This document shows, one piece after another, positions 817 to 14,556 of a stretch of 64,000 bases of DNA (position 1 is its first letter; each line of letters begins with the position of its first letter). The DNA lies in the NCBI RefSeq assembly GCF_013141825.1, contig NZ_RZNH01000023.1:3812-67811 (forward strand), read 5' to 3'. A program made the position numbers and the translations under genes. Below the pieces are notes generated by a model. That model was not told the DNA's origin. It saw nothing but the letters and a program-made list of their open reading frames with translations, and ran no database searches. This stretch comes from Marinifilum caeruleilacunae (GTDB lineage: Bacteria > Bacteroidota > Bacteroidia > Bacteroidales > Marinifilaceae).

Positions 817-1440
817 TTATGCTTCATCATCTGGGAGAATCTCATCTTCAATTTTAGTTTCATACCAGAACTCCTCTATTATTTTATGTCTGTATCTTGA
901 TATATATGGATGAAGATCTCTATAAAATGATTGAAACATTTCATTCGTTAATTCGCTAAACTGTTCAATATCTTCTTTGTGAATTGGTAAGGATTCTAAT
1001 TGTAGATTAATGAATTTATTTCGGATTGAATCTATTTCTGTAAACTTACTAGAAAGGTCTTTAAAATATTCTGTCTTTCTTTTTGATTTAGAATCCTTGA
1101 TGGTTGAATCGCTACTATTATAATTAACGGTTTGAAACATTAAAGCAGTATGATAATATTTAATCATTTCTAGCATCATGTTAGATTTCAAAATGATATC
1201 TGATAAGTTTTTAGAGTCATGATTATCATCTGTTTTCTTGGTGCCATCTCCAAATAATATCCAATCTGTTGATATCTCAAATTCTCTCTTAAGAGATTCT
1301 AATATTTTAGTATTTATCTCTCTTTTGCCTTGTTCAATCAACATTAATGTTGATCGGGACACGTTTAGCTTTTCAGCAAATTCATTTTGAGATAAATTTT
1401 TCTCAGTTCTCAATTCTTTAAGACGCTCAGCTACAGTCAT
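817..1440 (-). CDS. XRE-family HTH transcriptional regulator
   Basis: A 207-residue regulator. Residues 1-65 form a classic Cro/C1 helix-turn-helix (RLKELRTEKNLSQNEFAEKL, then VSRSTLMLIEQGKREI), followed by a helical, charged C-terminal half of unknown fold (about 75-207) that may dimerise or sense a ligand. It is divergent from a second HTH gene at 1576. The 135-bp intergenic space holds a perfect inverted repeat (1467-1496) and extra half-sites, so it probably represses both directions and keeps the downstream mobile element quiet, like a phage or ICE repressor. Its role as element repressor is inference from position. Confidence 0.85.
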   Translation of the reverse strand: MTVAERLKELRTEKNLSQNEFAEKLNVSRSTLMLIEQGKREINTKILESLKREFEISTDWILFGDGTKKTDDNHDSKNLSDIILKSNMMLEMIKYYHTALMFQTVNYNSSDSTIKDSKSKRKTEYFKDLSSKFTEIDSIRNKFINLQLESLPIHKEDIEQFSELTNEMFQSFYRDLHPYISRYRHKIIEEFWYETKIEDEILPDDEA

Positions 1441-1466
1441 TTTTAAATTGTTTCAAAAAATAAATT

Positions 1467-1496
1467 ACAAAACAACTCACTAAAGAGTTGTTTTGT
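1467..1496. promoter_or_regulatory. Palindromic operator between divergent HTH genes
   Basis: The arms ACAAAACAACTC and GAGTTGTTTTGT are perfect 12-bp reverse complements around a 6-nt spacer (ACTAAA). Further copies of the half-site follow: GTTGTTTTGTA at 1510-1520, in direct orientation 23 bp after the copy at 1487-1497, and GAGTTGTT at 1530-1537. This is the typical organisation of a repressor binding region serving two divergent promoters. Either HTH protein flanking it could be the ligand. Confidence 0.75.
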
Positions 1497-1575
1497 ATTC
1501 ATTTATTGCGTTGTTTTGTAATAGCGAATGAGTTGTTACGTTCGCAGTTTGTTAACCATTTTATCTCATAAAAAT

Positions 1576-1812
1576 ATGGAAAATAAAAGTAAAATAAAAG
1601 AGCTTGGAAATAAGCTTCCTAGAGGAGCTAAAATTAAAATATCACATAAGTGTGGTGTTTCCAGATCGCTTGTTACTCAGTTTTTTAATGGTAATAAAAC
1701 TCCTTCATTGGGCACAATCAAAAAAATATTGGTAGCAACATGTGAAGTTGTTGAAGATTACAAAAAGGAATCGAAAGCAATAGATCTAATAGTTGACACT
1801 ATAAATCTTTAA
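1576..1812 (+). CDS. Small HTH DNA-binding protein
   Basis: A 78-residue protein from the ATG at 1576. The frame is open from 1528, but the extra 16 codons lie within the operator-rich leader and do not look protein-like, so I chose the inner ATG. A helix-turn-helix is visible (ISHKCGVSRSLVTQFFNGNK, then PSLGTIKKIL), similar to Cro-like proteins. It lies opposite the XRE regulator and is first in the rightward gene series. A Cro-like or antirepressor role in the mobile element's switch is plausible but inferred. Confidence 0.75.
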   Translation: MENKSKIKELGNKLPRGAKIKISHKCGVSRSLVTQFFNGNKTPSLGTIKKILVATCEVVEDYKKESKAIDLIVDTINL

Positions 1813-1819
1813 TGAGTAT

Positions 1820-1829
1820 AAAACAACTC
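1820..1829. promoter_or_regulatory. Isolated operator half-site before the excisionase-like gene
   Basis: AAAACAACTC repeats exactly the left arm core of the 1467-1496 palindrome and sits 27 bp before the ATG at 1856. This suggests that the gene is under the same regulator. Confidence 0.5.
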
Positions 1830-1855
1830 TTCAATCTATATTATACAGCGCAAAT

Positions 1856-2149
1856 ATGACTGAGAAAATACTACAAGTCTCTGAAATGAATGCTTCAGAT
1901 CTGACAAAACAATTTCAATTACTTACACAAAAGCTGTCTGAGTTAGAGCAATATATCAAGCCAGTAAAACAAGAAACTCTATTAAGCCCTAAAGATGTTA
2001 TGGAGTGGCTTAAGATTACTCCTCCTACATTAAATGATTGGGCTAAAAAAGGCATATTAACCAGATATAAATTAGGTAACCGAGCTTTTTATAAGAAAGA
2101 AGAAATAATTGAGAGTTTAGACGGTTCGAAATATTCAGATAGACTATGA
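1856..2149 (+). CDS. Excisionase/MerR-like HTH_17 DNA-binding protein
   Basis: A 97-residue protein. An N-terminal coiled-coil-prone segment (about 15-40) precedes a winged helix of the kind found in Bacteroidetes excisionase-family proteins: LSPKDVMEWLKITPPTLNDW, then KKGILTRYKLGNRAFYKKEEI at about 44-88. Such proteins bind attachment-site DNA as recombination directionality factors or act as small regulators. The stop codon overlaps the start of the next gene (ATGA), implying translational coupling. No tyrosine integrase is present in the window, so a role with the serine recombinase at 3929 or an out-of-window integrase is inferred only. Confidence 0.8.
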   Translation: MTEKILQVSEMNASDLTKQFQLLTQKLSELEQYIKPVKQETLLSPKDVMEWLKITPPTLNDWAKKGILTRYKLGNRAFYKKEEIIESLDGSKYSDRL

Positions 2150-2376
2150 TTACATTTTCAAATAGATCCAATTTAGTATTTCGAATCTTGTTTTTATTCT
2201 TAGCTATTGGGGCTTTAATAGGAGTTTTCTACGGAGTCTACTTTCACATATTTTCATGCCTTGCATTTATAAGTGTATATGTGTTTTCTGCACCGGAAAG
2301 AAAAACTAAAAGTAAGCCTGTAAAAAACTGCACAAAAGAAACTTACATTCTAAAACTAAATGTAGCACGCCAATAA
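2146..2376 (+). CDS. Small membrane protein
   Basis: A 76-residue protein starting in the ATGA overlap with the preceding HTH gene. It has two closely spaced hydrophobic segments (about 10-29 and 30-48: FRILFLFLAIGALIGVFYG and FHIFSCLAFISVYVF), then a basic tail. It resembles no family I can name. By position it belongs to the mobile element; a holin-like, coat-like or simply accessory role cannot be decided. Confidence 0.6.
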   Translation: MITFSNRSNLVFRILFLFLAIGALIGVFYGVYFHIFSCLAFISVYVFSAPERKTKSKPVKNCTKETYILKLNVARQ

Positions 2377-2397
2377 AAATAGGTACAGATACACCAT

Positions 2398-2424
2398 TTT
2401 TTCAGATTGAAAAATTCTGAAAAA
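2398..2424. promoter_or_regulatory. Hairpin upstream of the replication gene
   Basis: TTTTTCAGA and TCTGAAAAA form a 9-bp stem with a 9-nt loop. It could be a terminator for the short upstream operon or part of a replication or regulatory region. Copies of a TAC..ATACACC-like motif flank it (2382-2397 and 2460-2475). Confidence 0.4.
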
Positions 2425-2522
2425 TCCGACTTTGGAAAGCAGGATACGCACAAATTTTTGATACGCATGCACCATTATTTTTGGACAAATAACTAACCGC
2501 CTTTTATACTCCTCTCTCACCA

Positions 2523-3932
2523 GTGATAGATTGCATTATCATAGAACTTACTGACTTTGATATCAGCCAGTGGTTAAACCACTCAAAGTTGAAATTCAAT
2601 GTATTGACCTCAATTGATACCGGTGAGTTAATTGGCAGTAAAAAAGCATATTACAATGGTTTGGAGTTTACCATAGAACCCAAAGGGAAAGTAAAAATCA
2701 AAGGATCTATCCATAAGTATTACAATGAAGGATTACACAATGGAGATCGTTTTACATTTGATGATTTTGTAAAGGCAGTTAGCCTCCTTTCAGAGTTCGG
2801 AGTAATACCGGAAAAGGCCCTACTAAGAGGTTTTGAAATTGGTCTGAATTTGGATACTACCAAGTCAAAAATAGATACCAAAGGCTTTTTAGATAGCATC
2901 TTATATTGTCGTGGCGTGGAAGGTTCAGACATGGAAATAAACGGGAAAACCGGTTATGGGTACCGCTTTAAAACCACCAACACCACATACAAGTTCTACG
3001 ATAAGATGGAACAAGCCTGTTTACAGTCAGAAAGGCTGCGCATAGAAACCAAGTTCACCAAAATGAGGGCTGTTGAAAGTTTCCATATTAGAACTTTGGC
3101 CGATTTAATGAATAAGGAAAAACTTAGCAAGTTGATAGCTGCTAAGTATGTAAGATTCATTGATGAAACCATTTTCTTTGAATGGAATCAGATCAAGACA
3201 CCTCGCAGGCTTCCAATTAAATACAGAAACAAATTCAGGGATTTAAGAAATCCTGATTGGTGGATAAAGGATGATCGTTGCCGGAAGGAAAGAAACCAAA
3301 ACAAAAAGCTACTGGAAAAACTCATAGACAAGTACGCCAAACGCAACATTAAAACCATCCTGAAAGACCTAATTCTATTGGAACTTCAAGCCTTTTCACG
3401 CAGTAAAAAAGGGGACAGATACACCGAATTTGAAAGCCTTTTCTTCCCAAACCCAATCAATACAAACAACGCAGAAAAAAAGGGTACGAATACACCATGT
3501 ATTGTATGGTGCGATCCGGCCGACCAGAGGGAGGTAAAAAAAGAGAAAAGATATTGTGAGGTATGCGGAAAGGAAATCACACACCAAAGAAAAGGTTCAA
3601 AATATTGTTCCCATAACAGAAAGTGCAGGGATACGGCCTATAACCTTAAAATTTCAGAAAAGAGAAAAACCAAAAGGCTAAAGCAGGAAAAAGAGATTAC
3701 CAAAATTATAAAGGAAATCGGTAGCCAGTTGCAGCTTGTCAGAACTACCAACCCCAAAAACAAAAGAAATCATCCAAGAGGAAAACCAATGAGAAGAACC
3801 TCAATAGTTGTTTCGGCCAATGGGAGAAAAAGATACTTCCACGGCTCGGCAGCAAGATTCTTTATACAAGAATTTGAAAAGAAGACAGAATCAAATGATA
3901 TCAACCCTAAAACTAAATTAAAGAGCGCATGA
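2523..3932 (+). CDS. G2P-like phage/plasmid replication initiation protein with zinc finger
   Basis: A 469-residue protein starting at a GTG codon at 2523. Residues 1-220 match the pattern of filamentous-phage gene II-type replication initiators found in Bacteroidetes plasmids and elements: the GSIHKYYNEG motif at 61-70, FTFDDFVKAVSLLSEFG, a FEIGLNLDT segment near 104-112, then LRIETKFTKMR and the HIRTLADLMN region. A treble-clef-like zinc finger follows at C345, C348, C362 and C368, then a basic tail. Proteins of this class nick and religate one strand to start rolling-circle replication. The stop overlaps the serine recombinase start by four bases. No catalytic Tyr can be assigned confidently by eye. 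Confidence 0.75.
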   Translation: MIDCIIIELTDFDISQWLNHSKLKFNVLTSIDTGELIGSKKAYYNGLEFTIEPKGKVKIKGSIHKYYNEGLHNGDRFTFDDFVKAVSLLSEFGVIPEKALLRGFEIGLNLDTTKSKIDTKGFLDSILYCRGVEGSDMEINGKTGYGYRFKTTNTTYKFYDKMEQACLQSERLRIETKFTKMRAVESFHIRTLADLMNKEKLSKLIAAKYVRFIDETIFFEWNQIKTPRRLPIKYRNKFRDLRNPDWWIKDDRCRKERNQNKKLLEKLIDKYAKRNIKTILKDLILLELQAFSRSKKGDRYTEFESLFFPNPINTNNAEKKGTNTPCIVWCDPADQREVKKEKRYCEVCGKEITHQRKGSKYCSHNRKCRDTAYNLKISEKRKTKRLKQEKEITKIIKEIGSQLQLVRTTNPKNKRNHPRGKPMRRTSIVVSANGRKRYFHGSAARFFIQEFEKKTESNDINPKTKLKSA

Positions 3933-4558
3933 GCACAGATAAGAAAGTCTACAAATATGCCAGAGTTTCAACCATAGGACAAAAGGAAGATCGTCAGGTG
4001 GATGGTCTCAAAGATGTAGATGGTGAATTGGTCATAGATAAACATTCCGGTATGGTACCCTTTGAAGAAAGACCAGCAGGAAAGATCATACTAGATGCAG
4101 TTGAGAAAGGTAAAATCTCTGGGCTGGTAGTCTGGAATTTTGACCGCTTGGGTAGAAATGTATCAGACATGCTAAAAACCCTTGAAATCATGAAAGACAA
4201 TGAGATCACGGTTACCATTCAGAAAATTGGAATGAAAAGTTACATCAACGGCCACTACAATCAAATGTTTGACTTCATGTCCGCCTTAATGGTTTTGGCT
4301 GCAAGAATGGAATATGACCGGATCAAGGAAAGACAAGCTGAAGGAATTGCCATTGCCAAAGCAAAAGGAATTTACAAGCTACATGCCGGTAAAGGAAAAA
4401 TGACAGATGAGCAATTCGAAAAACAACATGAAGACATTATCGAATTGTTGGGAGATGGAAAGTCGATCAGGAATATTGCCAAGTTGGTTAAAAAATCAGT
4501 TTCCACCGTTCAGCGAGTCAAAAAGCATTTAGACACACAAAAAGCGTATTCAAATTAG
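3929..4558 (+). CDS. Small serine recombinase (resolvase/invertase family)
   Basis: A 209-residue protein with a complete small-serine-recombinase catalytic domain. It has YARVST with catalytic Ser14 and Arg12, and the WNFDRLGRN motif with Asp72, Arg73 and Arg76. These correspond to the known Ser10, Arg8, Asp67, Arg68 and Arg71 of gamma-delta resolvase. The helical E-helix region (about 105-140) is followed by a C-terminal HTH (about 165-200: DGKSIRNIAKLVKKSVSTVQ). It would cut and rejoin short crossover sites to resolve multimers, invert DNA or integrate the element. It is translationally coupled to the replication gene, and repeated motifs just downstream could be its site. Confidence 0.9.
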   Translation: MSTDKKVYKYARVSTIGQKEDRQVDGLKDVDGELVIDKHSGMVPFEERPAGKIILDAVEKGKISGLVVWNFDRLGRNVSDMLKTLEIMKDNEITVTIQKIGMKSYINGHYNQMFDFMSALMVLAARMEYDRIKERQAEGIAIAKAKGIYKLHAGKGKMTDEQFEKQHEDIIELLGDGKSIRNIAKLVKKSVSTVQRVKKHLDTQKAYSN

Positions 4559-4656
4559 CCTCACCACAATGAATACACAAAAAGAGTCAGTATTGATGCT
4601 TTTGACCCTATTCAGGTGTGAGGACAAAAGGCTATACGCTAAAATGAATACAAAAC
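4535..4656. repeat. Direct-repeat cluster after the recombinase gene
   Basis: ACACAAAAAGCG (4535-4546) and ACACAAAAAGAG (4575-4586) are near-identical direct repeats. AATGAATACA occurs at 4568-4577 and again at 4643-4652. GCGTATT near 4545 and GCTATACGCT at 4631-4640 are related. Clustered short repeats beside a serine recombinase gene resemble a res-type site; the assignment is inference. Confidence 0.35.
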
Positions 4657-6064: not shown

Positions 6065-6974
6065 AAGGTTCTTCTAAACCACTTCTAAATATCCTATCAT
6101 GGGGCTAATTGGTGTTTCTGACTCAGTTTAATAGCTGATATTCAGAAATATTGATTGGTCTTTTTTCTTTTCCAACGAGTGTTATCCTTCTTTAAGGTAC
6201 TTTGAAGGAAGATAAAGTTATTTTTAATCCATCTCTTTTATCCTGAAAATGAGAAGTGAAAGCTTCAAATCCCAATCCTGAAATCATTTATCTGTCTGAA
6301 AGGTACTTCAAGGGAGTTTAAAAGAGTTTATCCCTGATATTCAGCATAAAGAAAAAATGCCTAATCAATGGAATAAGAACATTTTACAAAAACAAATTTC
6401 ATCACTCCATACAGGCATTATCCCTATTATCCTGCTTCAAAGGTGGGAAACCGTTTATTTTCTCCACACTAAAAATCACATTAACAAACTTATTTTTAAT
6501 TGATAACAAGTCTTTTGAAAATCTGATTACAAAGTAATTTCTAACCAATATGTAGGAAACGTCTCAAGATATCTAAGTGATACTTAATAACAACTAAATT
6601 GATTTTGAGAAAGGTATTCTCCTTTAGACTCCTTTTAGGTATCTAAGCTTTTTAATGTTTGTATAGATATAAATCAAAATTCACTTGGGAATACAATCTT
6701 TTTATACAAGGCATACCAACAATGAATCACTTACTTATATAATATTAATTAATTTAGTCTTAATAGATATTGTATAAGTGTCAAACAATTATATTATGAT
6801 TCTAATATGATTCGTAATCAATATGTTAATTTTAAAGTTCATGATTGATTAATAAATCATGAAAAGTATTAAACAATAACACTTTTTAAGAAGAATATGA
6901 GAGAAATAACAACCATATGGTTGTTATAACATAGTTGACCACTATTAAAATACAACTTATAAACTAGATAAATA
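6065..6974. other. 910-bp AT-rich intergenic region with repeated motifs
   Basis: I see no convincing gene here. It contains two copies of an imperfect palindrome centred on GGTACTT (AAGGTACTTTGAAGG at about 6196-6210 and AAGGTACTTCAAGGG at about 6301-6315), two copies of CTGATATTCAG (about 6136 and 6336), and an inverted repeat CATGATT/AATCATG at 6840-6861. It ends in the 22-bp palindrome listed separately. It separates the mobile element from the TIR operon and could hold an origin, attachment region or decayed genes. Confidence 0.5.
6906..6927. promoter_or_regulatory. Perfect 22-bp palindrome before the TIR operon
   Basis: ATAACAACCAT is followed directly by its exact reverse complement ATGGTTGTTAT. 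It lies 47 bp before the ATG of the first TIR gene, in the expected promoter region. It is a good operator candidate for a dimeric regulator. No regulator gene is adjacent, so the ligand is unknown. Confidence 0.6.
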
Positions 6975-7451
6975 ATGGCAAAAGTATTTATAAGTCATCA
7001 AAAAAGAGATCGTGAGCAGGCTAAGCAAATTGCGGATTATTTAAAGTCTGTTAATATTGATGTGTATTTTGATGAATTCGACAGAGAATTACAACAAGCA
7101 GATAGAGACGATAATCCTAAGGGTGTTGTTGCTGCAATAAAAAAGGGCATTAGAAGTTCAACTCATATGTTATGCATTATTTCTCCAAATACCTTATACT
7201 CTAAATGGGTTCCTTTTGAGGTTGGATATGGATATGATACTACAGAATTAGCTACTTTAACACTTCAAGGGATTAGGAATTCTGATTTGCCAGATTATAT
7301 AAAAACAGCACCCATTATTCGAGATATTTACGATATTAATCAGTTTGTAAGAAAACATGGAAGCTCAGTTATACTTGAAAGTCGCAATTATTCAGATTAC
7401 AAAAGTTCTTTACATCCTCTTAGTAATGTAATGGACGCAATCATAACATAG
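6975..7451 (+). CDS. TIR-domain protein
   Basis: A 158-residue protein that is essentially one TIR domain. The first strand is KVFISHQKRD (3-12). The second region is DYLKSVNIDVYFDEFDREL. The core HMLCIISPNTLYSKWVPFEV (64-83) includes Trp78 and Glu82, the position of the catalytic glutamate in TIR NADases. Bacterial TIR domains commonly cleave NAD+ or convert it to signalling cyclic ADP-ribose isomers in phage defence. It is the first gene of a three-gene operon; the next ORF starts 4 bp after its stop. No fused sensor or effector domain is present. NADase activity is inferred from the fold. Confidence 0.85.
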   Translation: MAKVFISHQKRDREQAKQIADYLKSVNIDVYFDEFDRELQQADRDDNPKGVVAAIKKGIRSSTHMLCIISPNTLYSKWVPFEVGYGYDTTELATLTLQGIRNSDLPDYIKTAPIIRDIYDINQFVRKHGSSVILESRNYSDYKSSLHPLSNVMDAIIT

Positions 7452-7455
7452 TATC

Positions 7456-8196
7456 ATGGCAATTCCAAGACATAAAGTATTTATAAGTTTTCAGCATGGG
7501 TGTCAAGAGAAAAACAAACCATGCGGAACAAAATATATTCTACGTACACCTTCACCACAATTAGGTATACTTTCAACTATTCAAAATCCATTGGTTTCAA
7601 TTCCAATAGTAGAATTTAATAAATGTAATGGCTATTGTGGTCGAAATAGATTAAATCCATTTCAATTAAACTCAAAATGTAGTAATTACGATATTTGTGG
7701 AAACTATTGGAAAGAACGTTTTGAACACCTTTTTTCTTTGAATACGGATGGTTTTGTTAATAAAGCAGTAAATGATGGTGATATTGCATTAGGTTTAAAA
7801 ACTGAAACGATTAGGCAAAAAATTAGAGATGAATTTATTGCAGATGCCACGGTTACGGTAGTGCTTATTGGTCCGAAAACATGGAGCCGAAAATATGTAG
7901 ATTGGGAAATTGGTTCTAGTATAAGAGCTAGTCAAAAAAATCCAAGGTGTGGTTTAATTGGTATTTTTTTGCCAACACATCCAGATTATGGGAAACCAAA
8001 TTATCATCCTAACATCATTCCACCAAGACTTTATGATAACCATAAAAATGGTTTTGCATCTTTGCATCATTGGTCAGAGAATCCTGAAATAGTTCAAGGG
8101 TGGATTCATGATGCTTTTGTTAGAAGAAATAGGATAAATCCAGATAATTCCTATCCAAGTTTTATAAATAATAAATCAGCAAATGGTTGGCAATAA
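7456..8196 (+). CDS. ThsB/MTH538-type TIR-like protein with cysteine-rich insert
   Basis: A 246-residue protein. HKVFISFQH (6-14) and TVTVVLIGPKTWSRKYVDWEI (132-152), with Glu151 after Trp150, then the GLIGIFLP strand, match the TIR-like domain (formerly DUF1863/MTH538) of Thoeris ThsB proteins, which make NAD-derived signals on phage infection. Between strand A and the rest lies an unusual insert of about 80 residues with six cysteines (16, 23, 57, 61, 75, 81) that could bind metal. The C-terminal quarter (PNYHPNIIPPRLYDNHKNGF and beyond) is also typical of longer ThsB-like members. It overlaps the next gene by 14 bp. No ThsA (SIR2-SLOG) or Macro-domain partner is present. Confidence 0.8.
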   Translation: MAIPRHKVFISFQHGCQEKNKPCGTKYILRTPSPQLGILSTIQNPLVSIPIVEFNKCNGYCGRNRLNPFQLNSKCSNYDICGNYWKERFEHLFSLNTDGFVNKAVNDGDIALGLKTETIRQKIRDEFIADATVTVVLIGPKTWSRKYVDWEIGSSIRASQKNPRCGLIGIFLPTHPDYGKPNYHPNIIPPRLYDNHKNGFASLHHWSENPEIVQGWIHDAFVRRNRINPDNSYPSFINNKSANGWQ

Positions 8197-8857
8197 AGTG
8201 CAAATAATTGATGTGTCATTTGACAAAATAGATTGGGTCTTTACTATGTCTATTAGCGTAATTGCTCTTGCAATCTCAGTATTATTAATAATAGTAGGAT
8301 ATCAAATATTTAAATACCTATTTAATTGGAAAAAAAATAATGTCCAAAATGAGATAGTGCCTGTTAAATTAAAATATAAATTGGGTAATGCTGAAATTGA
8401 ATATGAGGTAAAAAGGAGTTATCAAAATATTGAAATCGCTCATAAAATATACATTGAACTCATTACTCGCAAAGCTGCAATTGAAATCGATAAAGACAAA
8501 GATGTTATAGTTGAAGTTTATAATTCATGGTATTCATTGTTTCAAGTCACTAGAGAAGAGTTGAAACAACTTTCAGGTAATTTATTACTTGTTAATGACT
8601 CTTCCGAGTCTTTAATTAAATTATTATCTGATGTTTTAAACATCGGACTAAGACCACATCTTACAGAATATCAGGCAAAGTTTCGTAAATGGTATCAAGA
8701 AAAATTATTGGAAGATGAAAGTAATGGTAGAAGTCCTCAGCAGATTCAAAAAGATTATGATGACTATAACAATTTGATTAACTCGATGAAAGATGTGAAT
8801 AGACTTCTTATTGATTATGCAAAAGAGTTAAAGAAAATTATAAAAGGCAAGGAATAA
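8183..8857 (+). CDS. Single-pass membrane protein of the TIR operon, putative effector
   Basis: A 224-residue protein whose start overlaps the previous gene. One strong transmembrane helix (about 22-45: SISVIALAISVLLIIVGYQI) is followed by a cytoplasmic domain. An in-frame ATG at 8246 would give a protein starting just before this helix. Conserved-looking blocks are IAHKIYIELITRKAAIEID, DVIVEVYNSWYSLFQVTREE, and LRPHLTEYQAKFRKWYQEKL with a following QQIQKDYDDYNNLI segment. I recall this block set from a widespread uncharacterised family found near TIR genes, but I know of no function. By analogy with membrane effectors of other NAD-signal systems it may be the killing or arrest component; this is inference. 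Confidence 0.75.
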   Translation: MVGNKVQIIDVSFDKIDWVFTMSISVIALAISVLLIIVGYQIFKYLFNWKKNNVQNEIVPVKLKYKLGNAEIEYEVKRSYQNIEIAHKIYIELITRKAAIEIDKDKDVIVEVYNSWYSLFQVTREELKQLSGNLLLVNDSSESLIKLLSDVLNIGLRPHLTEYQAKFRKWYQEKLLEDESNGRSPQQIQKDYDDYNNLINSMKDVNRLLIDYAKELKKIIKGKE

Positions 8858-9021: not shown

Positions 9022-9858
9022 ATGAAAATTAAAGTTGGAAACTGGAAAGTTGACTCAAGGACATTAATTCGCTTAGAATGGAGAAAATATTATCCAAAAC
9101 TCATAATACAAGAAAAGTTTGAAAAACATATAAAGTGGATTCTAAGAGGATTAGCGCTTCTTGGTATTCTTATTAGTTTTTTCGTTTTACCCTACCACGT
9201 TGGAATAATTGTAACCATTGTGTTATTTGCCATTCAGACTCTAATAGAAAAGGCATTGTTTGAATATTCCGTCATGATTGTACAACCATTTCCTGACTTT
9301 AAAATTGACTATGACCAATGGGTGACCAATGGGTACTTCATAACAAACGAAGAAGTTGAAGGATACGAGAATTATCCAAACTATTTTGGACCTGCTTATA
9401 AGGATGAGAACTATGCTTACAATTTTTTTTCATACATAAGAGAGTGGAATCAAAATAGTGACACAGATTTTGATAATAATATTTGCATATCCTTTATTTA
9501 TGAAGATGATGTTAGTTATTCGACTTACTTGTATGCTAATCCAGATAGAAAATGGTTAGATGAATCATTTAATAGCGAAAAAGATAAAATGAAGTTGGAG
9601 AAATATGGCAAAGAACAACAATCTATGGTTATACAAATGGTTTATTGGAAAAATTTGAAAATGACTAATGGTATGTTCTTTACTCAATTCATCGAATCAC
9701 AAAAGAAAAGAGAGAAAAAGGAATTTTACTTTGCTCCATTTATACATAAAAATGGAAAGATTGGATATATAGATGAATTGAAGGTATTAAAAGTAGATTT
9801 CAAAGTTAAAGGACGGTCAGAGTTAACTGAAAATGAAGTCGAATATCATCATAGATAA
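9022..9858 (+). CDS. Membrane protein of unknown function between repeats
   Basis: A 278-residue protein with two adjacent transmembrane helices (about 38-57 and 60-78: WILRGLALLGILISFFVL and VGIIVTIVLFAIQTLI) and a large aromatic and acidic soluble domain (80-278) with WVTNGYFI, NYFGPAYKDENYAY and FAPFIHKNGKIGYIDEL. No named family recognised. It stands alone, on the same strand as the TIR operon but separated by 164 bp, and related intergenic repeats occur on both sides, as in mobile gene cassettes. Membership of the defence operon cannot be excluded. Confidence 0.65.
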   Translation: MKIKVGNWKVDSRTLIRLEWRKYYPKLIIQEKFEKHIKWILRGLALLGILISFFVLPYHVGIIVTIVLFAIQTLIEKALFEYSVMIVQPFPDFKIDYDQWVTNGYFITNEEVEGYENYPNYFGPAYKDENYAYNFFSYIREWNQNSDTDFDNNICISFIYEDDVSYSTYLYANPDRKWLDESFNSEKDKMKLEKYGKEQQSMVIQMVYWKNLKMTNGMFFTQFIESQKKREKKEFYFAPFIHKNGKIGYIDELKVLKVDFKVKGRSELTENEVEYHHR

Positions 9859-10124: not shown

Positions 10125-10469
10125 TTGAAACCAGAGAATCTTTACAAATTTTATGACACGAATCTTTTAAGTATTGCTTCGTTGCATGAGAACTATTTCT
10201 GGCTATCAAAACCTGAAAGTTTTAATGATCCTTTTGACTGTAATTTAAATCTAATAGAGTTTGAAAATAAGGACAATTTACTAAGCTTTGAATCAGTTAA
10301 AAGAAAATGCGTTTCAAATATTGGAGTAACTTGTTTTACTGAAGAAATAAATGAGTCCTTAATGTGTCCAATTAGCTTTGACATTATACAATTAGCACCC
10401 AGAAATCCAGAATTAGTACCTCTAATTTCTTTTGTATTTAGATCGAACAATCTAAACCTACAACTTTAA
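10125..10469 (+). pseudogene. Truncated DUF2971 protein remnant
   Basis: The reading frame encodes LYKFYDTNLLSIASLHENYF, then SKPESFNDPFDCN, and later GVTCFTEEINESLM. This is the N-terminal third of DUF2971 proteins (normally about 250-300 residues). After NESLM, at about 10364, the expected family continuation (a W/SHYA-type motif) is absent and the frame carries unrelated sequence into the 3' end of the STAND gene on the other strand. No ATG precedes the conserved part: the frame opens at 10092 without a good start and TTG at 10125 is the only candidate. I read it as a 5'- and 3'-damaged gene fragment. Confidence 0.6.
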
Positions 10470-13400
10470 TATCGGTGTCATTATATAAATCTTTTAGTTT
10501 GTTAATCTGCGTTTTGAATTCACTTCTCTTCTTTACTAGGTTGACAATAAGAAAGATTCCTTGAGTTGTACCAAATCCTTTAGGATAATTTGTAATCTTT
10601 TTCTTATAGCGATGGCAGCTTTGATAGTAATCACCTTTCTTCTTTAGTTTTACTTCGTTGTTATCGCTTAGCTTGATTTCTATTATTATTCTACCACTCA
10701 AGCCATATGAAACCAAAAAATCCGGTTTTTTGTCATTTAAGAGCTGAGGTTCACGAATAACGTTTAAATCCGCTTCACGAAATTCTCTCCTTAGAAAGCC
10801 TAGTTCAAATTGCGATTTAATAGTTTTTTGAACAAATTCTTCATGGGCTTTAGCTGGTTTTCTAGTTTTTCCTTTACTATTATCATTCTTTATTAAATCA
10901 AAATCATAAAAGATACGATATCCTCCTTCCGACCTAGCCCAGCGATTAATGTCAGTTTCAATGATATCTTCAGCTACATTGATCAAATCTATTGTTGAAT
11001 AGATCGAACTGAAGTGTTTGTCTTTTTGGATATTGTATTTTCTTACTGAATCCCTTATATTCTTGGGTTTAGATAGGTAATTCATATAGATTCTCTTGGC
11101 TTCAAATAGTTTATATTTTAGCCAATTAACTCCTTTTTTAGATTCATTTTTTAATATCCATTTTTCAAATCGATCAATTGGGATGTAATTTTTATTTGTT
11201 TTAAGGTTATTGAGATACATACAAAATAACTCAAGTAGATACTGAGAGTATAACTCCATCTTTTCATTATTTTCGCTTACTCTTAGGGCGAAGTTCAGTA
11301 GTTTCTCAAAATCATCATATAATTTTAAATCAGGATCAGAAATCTCAAGTAATGCCCTACCAAAAGTTTTACTGGTTAATTCGGACTCTTCACCAGATAC
11401 TATTCGAGCTCCTTCTGACCTAGGTCTAGTGAATTCAAATGCTCTTTCATTTAGTTGTTTAAATCTCCATTTTATAGCACTTTCATTACGATAACGAATT
11501 ATTAATTGTGTATTTGCTTCTTCCGCTACTTTAAGATCATCATCATTACTTTTCGAGAATTTTTCAAATATTTTTAAAAAGTATTCTTCATTGTCTAAGA
11601 GTATGCCAAGAAGATTTAATGATTCTATTCTGTAATATCGATCTATATTTGATGCATCCAGATCTACAAAGTATTGAAGAACTGGAATTGCTTCTTTTAT
11701 ATGATATTTTTTAGCGGTTGCAATTAATGCATTGGGCAAATGGGTTTTTATATCATCAGAAGCGCTGCTGTCATAAACTTCCATTAGGGAGTTTATTTCA
11801 TCATTAGTGATTTGATTGCCCAATAAGGTGAGAACGTTGCGAACGGTATCATTATATGAAAAGGGCAGGATTTGAATTATATTCTTACGAAACTCAGTAA
11901 TATTAATATTTAATTCGTTATTATATTTTGATAGTAAGTTTACGCATGCTATAAATTCATGAATCCAGTTTGTTACGGTGTATGTGCTTCCATTATTCGT
12001 TTTTTCAGTAATTTCAAGTTTAGCACTTTTAGGAGATCTCTGTAAGATATTTATAATTAAATCTTTGAGTCTTTCTTTATCTTCAGATGTTAATTTATTT
12101 ATTAATTTTTCATGGTTAATTATGTAGTAATCAAAAAGATCAGACATGTATCTGTCTTTTTCTGGTTCAAGTTTATAAAGGAATTCAGCATATACAGATT
12201 CATCAGATGATTCTTTTTGGGGATGCCTCTTGTCATATTCCAGCCAGTGTTGCTTGTTTTCCTCGTATTCTTTATGCAATACCCTTTTAGCTATTTCGAC
12301 TACAGATATCTTCTCAGGATATCTATTTTCAATTGTTAAGAAGACGCTTAAAATTTGTACAGATGGGAATAAGGTTGAAAATTTCTCTATAAATTTCTCA
12401 GTTTGTTCTTCTTCAATTAGATGGGCAAAACAAGTTGTAATATCATAGTAGTTACTATTCTTATTATTCGAAGTACTAATATTAGTCATTAAATGGAAAA
12501 GATAATTTTTATCGTGTGACTTTAGTAAATCAAGTAAAGAGAATATGAATTTACCACTTTTTAATTCCCAAATTCTATCATTCAAATAGACGTTGAGAAT
12601 GATGTTATTTAATAGTGTTGAAATTTCTTGATCCCAGAATTTATCAACATTATCTAGGAAGTGAATTAAGTTGTGATCAATTTCTTTTCTCCATTGATCT
12701 TCAAATTGGGAATTAAATTTTATTAATAGTCTTCTATTTTCTAAGCATGAACTTAGAAAGTTTAAAATACTTTCTTTTTTATTCAATTTAGAAATTGCTT
12801 CCCGGGCATAGTAGTCTAGCATCGACATTGAAGGACTCAAGAATGCTTTTATGAAGTGTTGAATTGAGAAATCGTCATCAGGATTTATTTTAGCACAGCC
12901 CCGTATAAATTTCTCCTTATATAAACCTCCTCCTAATTCATAAGTATCTTGAATTTCTTTTAAAGAATCAATATCATTAAAGGAAATTAGAGCTTCCAAA
13001 ATAAATCGAGAGTATGCGGAATCAGCTAGGGTTTTATTTTCTTTTAGCCAGTTTGTAAAATTGCGTTTCCAATAACTAGATTCTGAGCTGACTATACTGT
13101 TTTGTTTTACTAGTCCTTTTACTATGGAAGCTGTATTGCCTCGCTTTACTTCTAGGATAACCCCTTTGCTTCTTCTTGCATCAATAGAGTTTATAAGTAG
13201 TTCTTTATTTTTAGCCGTGTAAAATGTAGGCAATGATTCTTCTACTTCAAAAGGAATCCAGATACCATTATTTTGAAAATATGTAAAAATGAAGTTAAAA
13301 ATGCCAGCTTTTTCTTCTTCAGTAAAACTATTACTATTTGGTCGGATTAATTTAAAAACATCTTCGGTATGAATTATTTTGTGATTATTTCCTGTTGTAA

Positions 13401-14556
13401 AGTTCAATAAGCTTTTAAACAAAGTTGGGTTTAGATCTATTAAGAAAGATAAAGTATTGTACCAAGAAGGCAGTACTTCTTTTAATAGAGGATCAAATGC
13501 AAAATCAAAAATTGATTGCTCAAGGTTTCCTAAACGGTTAATTTCACTTGCTGCTAAATACTCTTGTATTTCAGTATTTTGAAACTCAATTTCATTATTA
13601 GCATTTTTCTTAATTAATGTTCTTTCCCAAAAATCCGGTATATAGTGAATACTATGAGAGGTAAAAATCTCCGATTTAACATCATCCACAATAGTCCAAA
13701 ACTCTTCTTCCGTGATTAAGTTTGTTTGGTTCACCTCCATTATAAGAGCTAGTGTTTGTTGAACTCTTTTTATATAGATATTCTCGTTAATATTATTTGA
13801 AGTTAATTTGTTCGATTCAATAGAGAGGTGACTGTTAATCAACTCATCAAATAGTGAGATCTTCGTTAAATTTAAAACTTTATCAACTCCATCATGTTTG
13901 AATAAGTTTAAAAGTATTTCTAAATATCGGGGAGTTTGTATAACCGAAACTAAATGAGGGGAGCGATACTTTTTCCACACCTTATCAAATTCGTCATCGC
14001 TTAGATTACCATTTTTGAGGAACTCAAAAATACCTTGAGAATCTAATGGGGCAATTGATAAGAAGCAATCAAGAGGGATGTTAGGATTCCATTTTTCAAA
14101 ATGATTAATGCGACAAGAGAGAATAATCTTAGTTTCCTTATTATCTTGAATAAACTCATTAATTTGATCTACTATACCTAAAAAATTATCTCCTTTTACT
14201 TCATCTAAAGCGTCAAAGCAAATAGTGCTCTCACTTATATTCTCTATTTCAAACTCATTCTCCTCAATACAATATTTTGTTTTAAGAATATTTATAATTT
14301 TTTTATCTTGAACTGATTTTAAATCAACGCAAATTGCATTAGGAGTATTTTTAACTAATTCACGCAACAACCTACTTTTTCCAAATCCAGGTTCTCCAAG
14401 TATAGCTACAGTTTTCTTTAATAAGATTTCTTCCCAAGTGTACCTGCTTCCATATAATCCGGTGTTTTTCTTATCAATAAGCTCACTTAGTGATGTATAT
14501 TCTTTTAAATATGGGGTTATGTATTTGCATTCTTCTTGCTTTTGTGATGTTCCCAT
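10438..14556 (-). CDS. NACHT/STAND-like ATPase with C-terminal PD-(D/E)XK nuclease motif
   Basis: A 1372-residue protein, a probable antiphage sensor-effector. A short N-terminal region (1-45) is followed by a NACHT-type P-loop domain. Walker A is GEPGFGKS (54-61) and Walker B is ICFDALDEV (112-120). A sensor-1-like strand IILSCRINH lies near residue 145. Residues ~350-1180 look like irregular helical repeats, as in STAND sensor regions. The last ~200 residues carry KPDFLVSYG (Asp1279), then GRIIIEIKL (Glu1293, Lys1295), the metal-binding PD-(D/E)XK signature of restriction-like nucleases. Known bacterial Avs/NLR-like proteins usually carry effectors at the N-terminus, so this layout is noteworthy. 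It converges on the DUF2971 remnant. Confidence 0.75.
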   Translation of the reverse strand: MGTSQKQEECKYITPYLKEYTSLSELIDKKNTGLYGSRYTWEEILLKKTVAILGEPGFGKSRLLRELVKNTPNAICVDLKSVQDKKIINILKTKYCIEENEFEIENISESTICFDALDEVKGDNFLGIVDQINEFIQDNKETKIILSCRINHFEKWNPNIPLDCFLSIAPLDSQGIFEFLKNGNLSDDEFDKVWKKYRSPHLVSVIQTPRYLEILLNLFKHDGVDKVLNLTKISLFDELINSHLSIESNKLTSNNINENIYIKRVQQTLALIMEVNQTNLITEEEFWTIVDDVKSEIFTSHSIHYIPDFWERTLIKKNANNEIEFQNTEIQEYLAASEINRLGNLEQSIFDFAFDPLLKEVLPSWYNTLSFLIDLNPTLFKSLLNFTTGNNHKIIHTEDVFKLIRPNSNSFTEEEKAGIFNFIFTYFQNNGIWIPFEVEESLPTFYTAKNKELLINSIDARRSKGVILEVKRGNTASIVKGLVKQNSIVSSESSYWKRNFTNWLKENKTLADSAYSRFILEALISFNDIDSLKEIQDTYELGGGLYKEKFIRGCAKINPDDDFSIQHFIKAFLSPSMSMLDYYAREAISKLNKKESILNFLSSCLENRRLLIKFNSQFEDQWRKEIDHNLIHFLDNVDKFWDQEISTLLNNIILNVYLNDRIWELKSGKFIFSLLDLLKSHDKNYLFHLMTNISTSNNKNSNYYDITTCFAHLIEEEQTEKFIEKFSTLFPSVQILSVFLTIENRYPEKISVVEIAKRVLHKEYEENKQHWLEYDKRHPQKESSDESVYAEFLYKLEPEKDRYMSDLFDYYIINHEKLINKLTSEDKERLKDLIINILQRSPKSAKLEITEKTNNGSTYTVTNWIHEFIACVNLLSKYNNELNINITEFRKNIIQILPFSYNDTVRNVLTLLGNQITNDEINSLMEVYDSSASDDIKTHLPNALIATAKKYHIKEAIPVLQYFVDLDASNIDRYYRIESLNLLGILLDNEEYFLKIFEKFSKSNDDDLKVAEEANTQLIIRYRNESAIKWRFKQLNERAFEFTRPRSEGARIVSGEESELTSKTFGRALLEISDPDLKLYDDFEKLLNFALRVSENNEKMELYSQYLLELFCMYLNNLKTNKNYIPIDRFEKWILKNESKKGVNWLKYKLFEAKRIYMNYLSKPKNIRDSVRKYNIQKDKHFSSIYSTIDLINVAEDIIETDINRWARSEGGYRIFYDFDLIKNDNSKGKTRKPAKAHEEFVQKTIKSQFELGFLRREFREADLNVIREPQLLNDKKPDFLVSYGLSGRIIIEIKLSDNNEVKLKKKGDYYQSCHRYKKKITNYPKGFGTTQGIFLIVNLVKKRSEFKTQINKLKDLYNDTDIKVVGLDCSI

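Follow-up and report, generated by a model that had tools for sequence, protein, structure and literature searches.

A probable TIR-based anti-phage alarm system with a membrane component not represented in the family libraries searched

The 64,000-nucleotide stretch of the Marinifilum caeruleilacunae genome analysed here (the window; the source assembly is a draft of 5.27 Mb in 202 contigs) contains an operon in which two TIR genes, g1 and g2, are followed by g3, a gene for a single-pass membrane protein that is named M in this work. Most probably the operon is one instance of a widespread alarm system against phages, with a membrane component that has no entry in the family libraries that were searched. 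The unit that recurs in other genomes is one M gene with a variable set of TIR genes, as in multi-ThsB Thoeris, and we consider it rather likely that this unit is a Thoeris-like abortive-infection system in which each TIR protein senses and signals alone, with M as the membrane effector that they have in common.

The operon and its genomic setting

Three open reading frames on the forward strand, called by longest-ORF rules rather than with a gene finder, occupy positions 6975-7451 (g1, 158 aa), 7456-8196 (g2, 246 aa) and 8183-8857 (M, the proposed effector, 224 aa). The gap between g1 and g2 is 4 bp and the overlap between g2 and M is 14 bp, in agreement with the coordinates and spacing given in an earlier note on this DNA. 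A perfect palindrome had also been noticed ahead of the operon, and one of 22 bp is present at 6906-6927, 5' of g1, as a possible operator. It is the longest of three perfect palindromes with arms of at least 8 bp in the window. When 1 kb was Markov-shuffled 300 times, arms of at least 11 bp occurred 0.0 times on average. Four relatives were inspected, some of them with little upstream sequence, and none showed an equally long palindrome close to the start of its operon.

GC content is 0.29-0.37 over the first 16 kb of the window versus 0.36-0.42 thereafter. A genome of the same genus (G039) matches the window at 1250-4655 (85% identity) and from 15302 on (88%), while the genes between differ: the left flank, which includes a recombinase gene, and the right flank are kept, and other cargo lies inside. 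In a further genome of the genus (G036), the right flank alone matches, and profiles for the TIR proteins and M had no matches in the flank-matching stretches fetched from either genome. The same flanks around different genes in G039, together with the low GC content, mark this as a site of swappable accessory cargo, as expected from the description of this region as an accessory island. The cargo site of G039 (L120) includes a gene for a 987-aa protein whose N-terminus looks restriction-like by eye. Near the operon, the reverse strand of the window (10438-14556) encodes a 1372-aa STAND/NACHT-like ATPase with a C-terminus that appears nuclease-like by eye; its score of 52.2 bits against the antiphage NACHT protein EruA is far below the cut-off of 1000.

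The assignment of g1 to the TIR proteins comes from its profile matches, which are to Pfam TIR_2 (50.7 bits, cut-off 28; E = 3e-13) and ThsB_TIR (36.4 bits, cut-off 21.2; E = 7e-9). The g2 protein is of the ThsB type, with 47.8 bits against ThsB_TIR (cut-off 21.2; E = 2e-12), and PADLOC returned ThsB models for g1 and g2 alike, proteins that are 17% identical to each other. The putative catalytic residues named earlier, Glu82 of g1 in a W..FE context (WVPFE; 7218-7220, forward strand) and Glu151 of g2 (VDWE; 7906-7908, forward strand), both fall in conserved columns, and with both Pfam scores above cut-off the earlier reading of the two proteins as TIR and ThsB-type TIR-like, respectively, stands. 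Glutamate occupies the catalytic position in all 62 g1-type TIR proteins, that of the window included, and in 54 of 56 g2-type proteins, the two exceptions being one lysine (L019) and one fragment that is gapped at this position. The lysine-bearing protein is encoded at L019:4513-4971, in a locus that has two other TIR genes.

A TIR fold had been expected in structure models, and for g2, the protein to which this result applies, the AlphaFold2 model (mean pLDDT 78.9) displays the alternating strand-helix pattern of a TIR domain. The top PDB chain for g2 in phmmer was 9vyl (E = 6e-4), and the same structure, BdThsB1 with NAD, headed the Foldseek rows with a probability of 1.00 and an E-value of only 4e-3. 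A Bacillus cereus TIR protein was also returned at a probability of 1.00 and ThsB in complex with Tad3 ranked fourth, none of the Foldseek matches reaching an E-value of 1e-3. Directly after its first TIR strand, g2 carries a Cys-rich insert of about 65 residues (7492-7686, forward strand), with six cysteines in residues 16-81, which is missing from all five aligned homologues and is modelled with pLDDT below 50 across residues 22-67 and 70-76. The insert may serve to bind metal or to sense a cue.

Linkage of M to a variable set of TIR genes

When one genome per species was scanned, 127 relatives of M came to light, of which 80 were kept, with record titles from Bacteroidota, Bacillota, Pseudomonadota, Spirochaetota, Acidobacteria, Actinomycetes, an archaeal bin and others; many of the carriers are metagenome bins. 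When genomes were sampled evenly, M was found in 7 of 395 from the phylum of the window (the window genome counted), in 5 of 398 from the phylum around a Sphingobium (the centre and four remote matches, E = 4e-21 to 3e-9) and in 2 of 398 from that around a Metabacillus (the centre and one other). One further match, in G022 (E = 3e-4), falls in an ABC-transporter-like ORF and was dropped. The M proteins of G036 and of Marinifilum flexuosum DSM 21950 (L007, L023) fall into one cluster at 90% identity or more. Among 72,556 plasmid records, 41 match M, mostly weakly and none across more than 80% of its length, and four viral contigs have matches. Small enterobacterial plasmids (L003:3051-4409 and L005) carry a TIR gene convergent with a gene for a distant, two-TM relative of M, and repeated copies of such genes occur on the 21-kb p64EVAM-5.

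After 91 M loci were merged at 90% identity into 82 non-redundant ones, profiles grown from g1 and g2 placed a TIR gene within 2.5 kb of M in 78 of the 82, and in 58 of the 82 a TIR gene lies on the same strand within 150 bp; the co-occurrence of TIR and membrane families elsewhere, on which the idea of a system had been made to depend, is thus borne out. Among the four loci that lacked a TIR gene, L015 proved to have one about 340 bp upstream once more sequence was added, which makes it the 79th locus, while L061 and L067 are short or near contig ends and the TIR genes of L053 are at least 2.6 kb away. For the remote relatives L105 and L106, no TIR gene was found in the adjoining 1-1.5 kb examined. 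In the loci from the scan of one genome per species, 116 TIR ORFs were counted in 349 kb near M, as compared with 5 in 289 kb more than 5 kb off, and the M-TIR neighbourhood is more than chance. Because the profiles behind the TIR calls had been iterated on the very ORFs that they were used to search, the calls were checked against Pfam, for which 94 of the 126 called TIRs were taken (18 long and 14 short ones being left out); with the two proteins of the window, ThsB_TIR was called in 87 of 96. The g1 and g2 profiles detect each other's members, so the labels g1 and g2 used for other genomes are soft. A large conservation gap between M and its TIR neighbours was ruled out, as M is the more conserved in only 563 of 941 locus pairs (medians 0.42 and 0.40), and the co-variation of M with TIR proteins is weak (Mantel r 0.19, 0 of 500 permutations).

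A single M match is present in 89 of the 91 loci, whereas the number and type of the TIR genes vary. One TIR gene on the strand of M within 2.5 kb is the arrangement in 42 of 82 loci (20 g2-M, 13 g1-M, 6 M-g1 and 3 M-g2), a count in which some loci end at contig edges, and one TIR protein therefore appears to be sufficient. The order g1-g2-M, considering only TIR and M genes on the same strand within 2.5 kb, recurs in 11 of 82 loci and also in L010, which was merged with L020. Thus, the gene order of the three-gene system proposed in the earlier note is found elsewhere, but these three genes are not a fixed unit, since so many loci have a single TIR gene. When all layouts within 3.5 kb on either strand are considered, g2-M accounts for 19 of 82, ts-g1-Nmad2-M and g2-M-g1 for 5 each, and g1-M and g1-g2-M for 4 each.

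Compared with the window, a locus of the same genus (L007) is 58% identical in M, 43% in g1 and 35% in a g2, and a locus from an uncultured Chitinophagaceae bin (L017) is 80% identical in g1, 60% in M and 34% in g2, a mosaic that looks as if TIR sensors had been exchanged separately from M. An Aureispira plasmid (L002) has an NDT-like gene and four TIR genes ahead of M, and at L002:12378-15126, some 4 kb downstream of this operon, are cas6, cas1 and cas2. Separately, an Acinetobacter plasmid carries a TIR-TIR-TPR-TIR operon with a g2-like TIR and no match to M (L004:2546-5390), and two more Acinetobacter plasmids (L096, L097) have operons of this kind by annotation alone.

In many loci a third gene is situated between the TIR gene and M; in 8 of 8 cases tested it encodes Nmad2 (Pfam PF18753), and the gene upstream in these variants was thymidylate-synthase-like in 2 of 2. 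Examples of Nmad2 genes beside TIR and M genes are found at L013:867-1490 and L024:7367-8005. By profile, 21 of 82 loci encode Nmad2 no more than 3.5 kb from M, and 9 of 82 a thymidylate-synthase-like protein; neither gene turned up in the window. It is possible that the two form a nucleotide-tailoring module for TIR signalling.

The M family and the described types of Thoeris

The M protein of the window has one hydrophobic segment, a hydropathy peak that the AlphaFold2 model (mean pLDDT 91.4) renders as a single transmembrane helix at residues 26-56 (8258-8350, forward strand), as the one-helix membrane protein of the earlier note would have it. The C-terminal side of this helix is the more positively charged in 70 of 78 relatives, and the C-terminal helical domain is therefore predicted to be cytosolic; the N-terminus forms a short hairpin that is predicted to face outward. 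It is the cytosolic domain that is strongly conserved, and not the N-terminus. Across 65 aligned members 17 residues are invariant, many of them charged or aromatic, although the loci were fetched with two M motifs (residues ~89-97 and ~109-117), which makes part of this conservation one of construction; R124, R157, H159, T161, W170, Q186 and Q189 are invariant outside the search motifs. In a wider set of 74 members only S115, R124, L152, L160 and W170 are invariant.

In Pfam and NCBIfam, M of the window has no match above cut-off; in PADLOC it has none at E-values up to 1, and its best match in PHROGs has an E-value of 0.0095. Among the families listed for the 74 members (25 of 64 for Pfam, 25 of 30 for NCBIfam), the best E-values were 0.0004 in Pfam, 0.0016 in NCBIfam and 0.004 in PADLOC, and the matches were scattered over unrelated families. 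Foldseek returned no match to M with an E-value of 1e-3 or less in the PDB or among viral models, and binding of a ligand thus gains no argument from the fold. The transmembrane helix is present in 88 of 91 members and absent from three, and soluble relatives are encoded at L103:1462-1983, L104:1507-2028 and L006:8010-8507, next to genes for TIR-SLOG-like proteins (L103 and L104; SLOG by eye) or other TIR fusions. Taken with the three members that lack the helix, these relatives imply that the M domain is not always a membrane effector.

With Thoeris in the broad sense, the operon shares ThsB-type TIR proteins above the Pfam cut-off, with glutamate at the catalytic position. M is operonic by its position and is linked to TIR genes in 78 of 82 loci, and it would be the effector. 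The resemblance to type II, in which ThsB is paired with a TM-macro ThsA and His-ADPR, lies in the combination of ThsB-type TIR proteins with a membrane-anchored partner that has a soluble domain, and in the use of one or several TIRs per partner. M differs from the type II partner in its one modelled TM helix and in a helical domain without a clear library match. Type I, in which ThsB is paired with a SIR2-SLOG ThsA, has multi-TIR operons in common with this one, and the best PDB match of g2 is BdThsB1 (9vyl). Pfam finds no macro domain, no SIR2 or SLOG domain and no peptidase domain such as the caspase-like protease of type IV would have in g1, g2, M or the product of the next gene (9022-9858), which upholds the earlier view that the partner has neither the type I nor the type II effector domain. 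By effector domain, as judged from these profile searches, the operon is outside Thoeris types I, II and IV.

The NCBIfam models for type III share with this operon, to judge from the model names alone, more than one TIR class and a small partner. M did not match the ThcA model (NF058525) at E-values up to 1; with matches in 0 of 314 genomes (sets of 5, 10 and 299) and 0 of 14 control genomes, the sensitivity of this model in this setting is unproven. ThcA is not among the 25 of 30 NCBIfam families listed for the 74 M relatives, and the type III ThcB4 model (NF058526) gave 14.8 bits for g1, against a cut-off of 220, and no match for g2.

The novelty of M rests on Pfam, NCBIfam, PADLOC and PHROGs and on a search of the open literature; no description of the M-TIR pairing was found among the papers of the open PMC library. 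A 2025 preprint by Yirmiya et al. (doi 10.64898/2025.12.03.692087) reportedly concerns, to go by its title, the systematic discovery of TIR-based systems, and a 'type VI Thoeris' is said in a citing preprint to come from it. Given the spread of M, the M-TIR pairing may already be included there.

A proposed mechanism and its alternatives

As passages of two sources describe it, the TM effector of type II Thoeris clusters on a TIR-made nucleotide (PMC11204291; PMC12847820), and in a passage on multi-ThsB Thoeris each TIR protein is supposed to sense and to signal alone (PMC11204291). Among the known TIR signals, according to part of the second source (PMC12847820), 3'cADPR acts on a SIR2 effector, His-ADPR on a TM-macro effector and N7-cADPR on a caspase-like protease. 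In the mechanism proposed here, g1 and g2 would each sense a phage cue independently, and the TIR glutamate, a residue that is present in both, would turn NAD+ into a nucleotide derived from ADP-ribose. This signal would bind the conserved cytosolic helical domain of M. On binding, M may cluster in the membrane, by analogy with type II, oligomerising via its single transmembrane helix; it would then disrupt the inner membrane and phage production would stop. The TIR proteins would be exchangeable sensors and M the constant effector. Retention of the glutamate in both TIR groups and the frequency of single-TIR loci make it plausible that each TIR protein senses and signals alone. Since M has invariant residues while its TIR partners belong to two dissimilar groups, a shared small ligand may be the simplest reason for its conservation, which such a ligand would fit better than would a variable protein surface.

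The evidence on the two TIR groups also bears on the division of labour suggested in the earlier note, in which one TIR protein only senses and the other makes the signal. Two different TIR groups do occur in one operon, and the g2-type protein of L019 has lysine in place of the glutamate; however, 62 of 62 g1-type and 54 of 56 g2-type proteins retain the residue, one of the two exceptions being a gapped fragment, and in 42 of 82 loci there is just one TIR gene on the strand of M within 2.5 kb, which counters this division and leaves it highly improbable. In the main alternative, the TIR proteins would themselves be the effectors, NADases that drain NAD+, and M would be a scaffold or adaptor in the membrane that brings them together and switches them on. 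TIR domains can themselves be NAD-depleting effectors, as stated in part of one source (PMC12847820), some soluble M relatives adjoin TIR-SLOG-like proteins, and M and TIR proteins co-vary, if weakly. Yet invariant polar residues would be unexpected on a surface that docks TIR proteins of two dissimilar groups, and the transmembrane helix is retained in 88 of 91 members; we regard this reading as fairly unlikely.

M could also do the sensing: phage entry or envelope stress would be detected by the hairpin at its N-terminus together with the transmembrane helix, and the TIR proteins would be switched on in response. Its membrane location and the short hairpin predicted to face outward would suit such a role, but it is the cytosolic domain and not the N-terminus that is strongly conserved, and it is the TIR genes and not M that vary in number between loci, as expected of sensors, so that this reading is improbable. 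A role outside phage defence, either in nucleotide signalling or stress or as cargo without an immune function, would accord with the lack of a known phenotype and with the thymidylate-synthase-like and Nmad2 neighbours of some relatives. The patchy distribution, the swappable cargo site, the strong link to ThsB-type TIR proteins and a plasmid relative that has cas genes some 4 kb away argue against it, and we think it very doubtful.

As a more tentative extension of the favoured reading, in which M is the shared effector, M might define a family of receptor-effectors that has yet to be described, in which a helical domain that binds nucleotides is carried on one membrane helix and forms the constant end of a new, multi-phylum type of Thoeris. 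Its inputs would be exchangeable, either plain TIR proteins of two groups or a TIR protein with Nmad2, with or without the thymidylate-synthase-like enzyme, a combination that may shape a modified nucleotide signal.

Should M be the effector, TIR-made signals would have one more membrane read-out, and the question of which nucleotides the TIR proteins of bacteria make could be approached through one constant handle that many phyla share. The variants with Nmad2 and thymidylate-synthase-like genes hint at a signal that is chemically tailored. Because one TIR gene with one M gene is the commonest arrangement, the question would be directly testable in laboratory bacteria.
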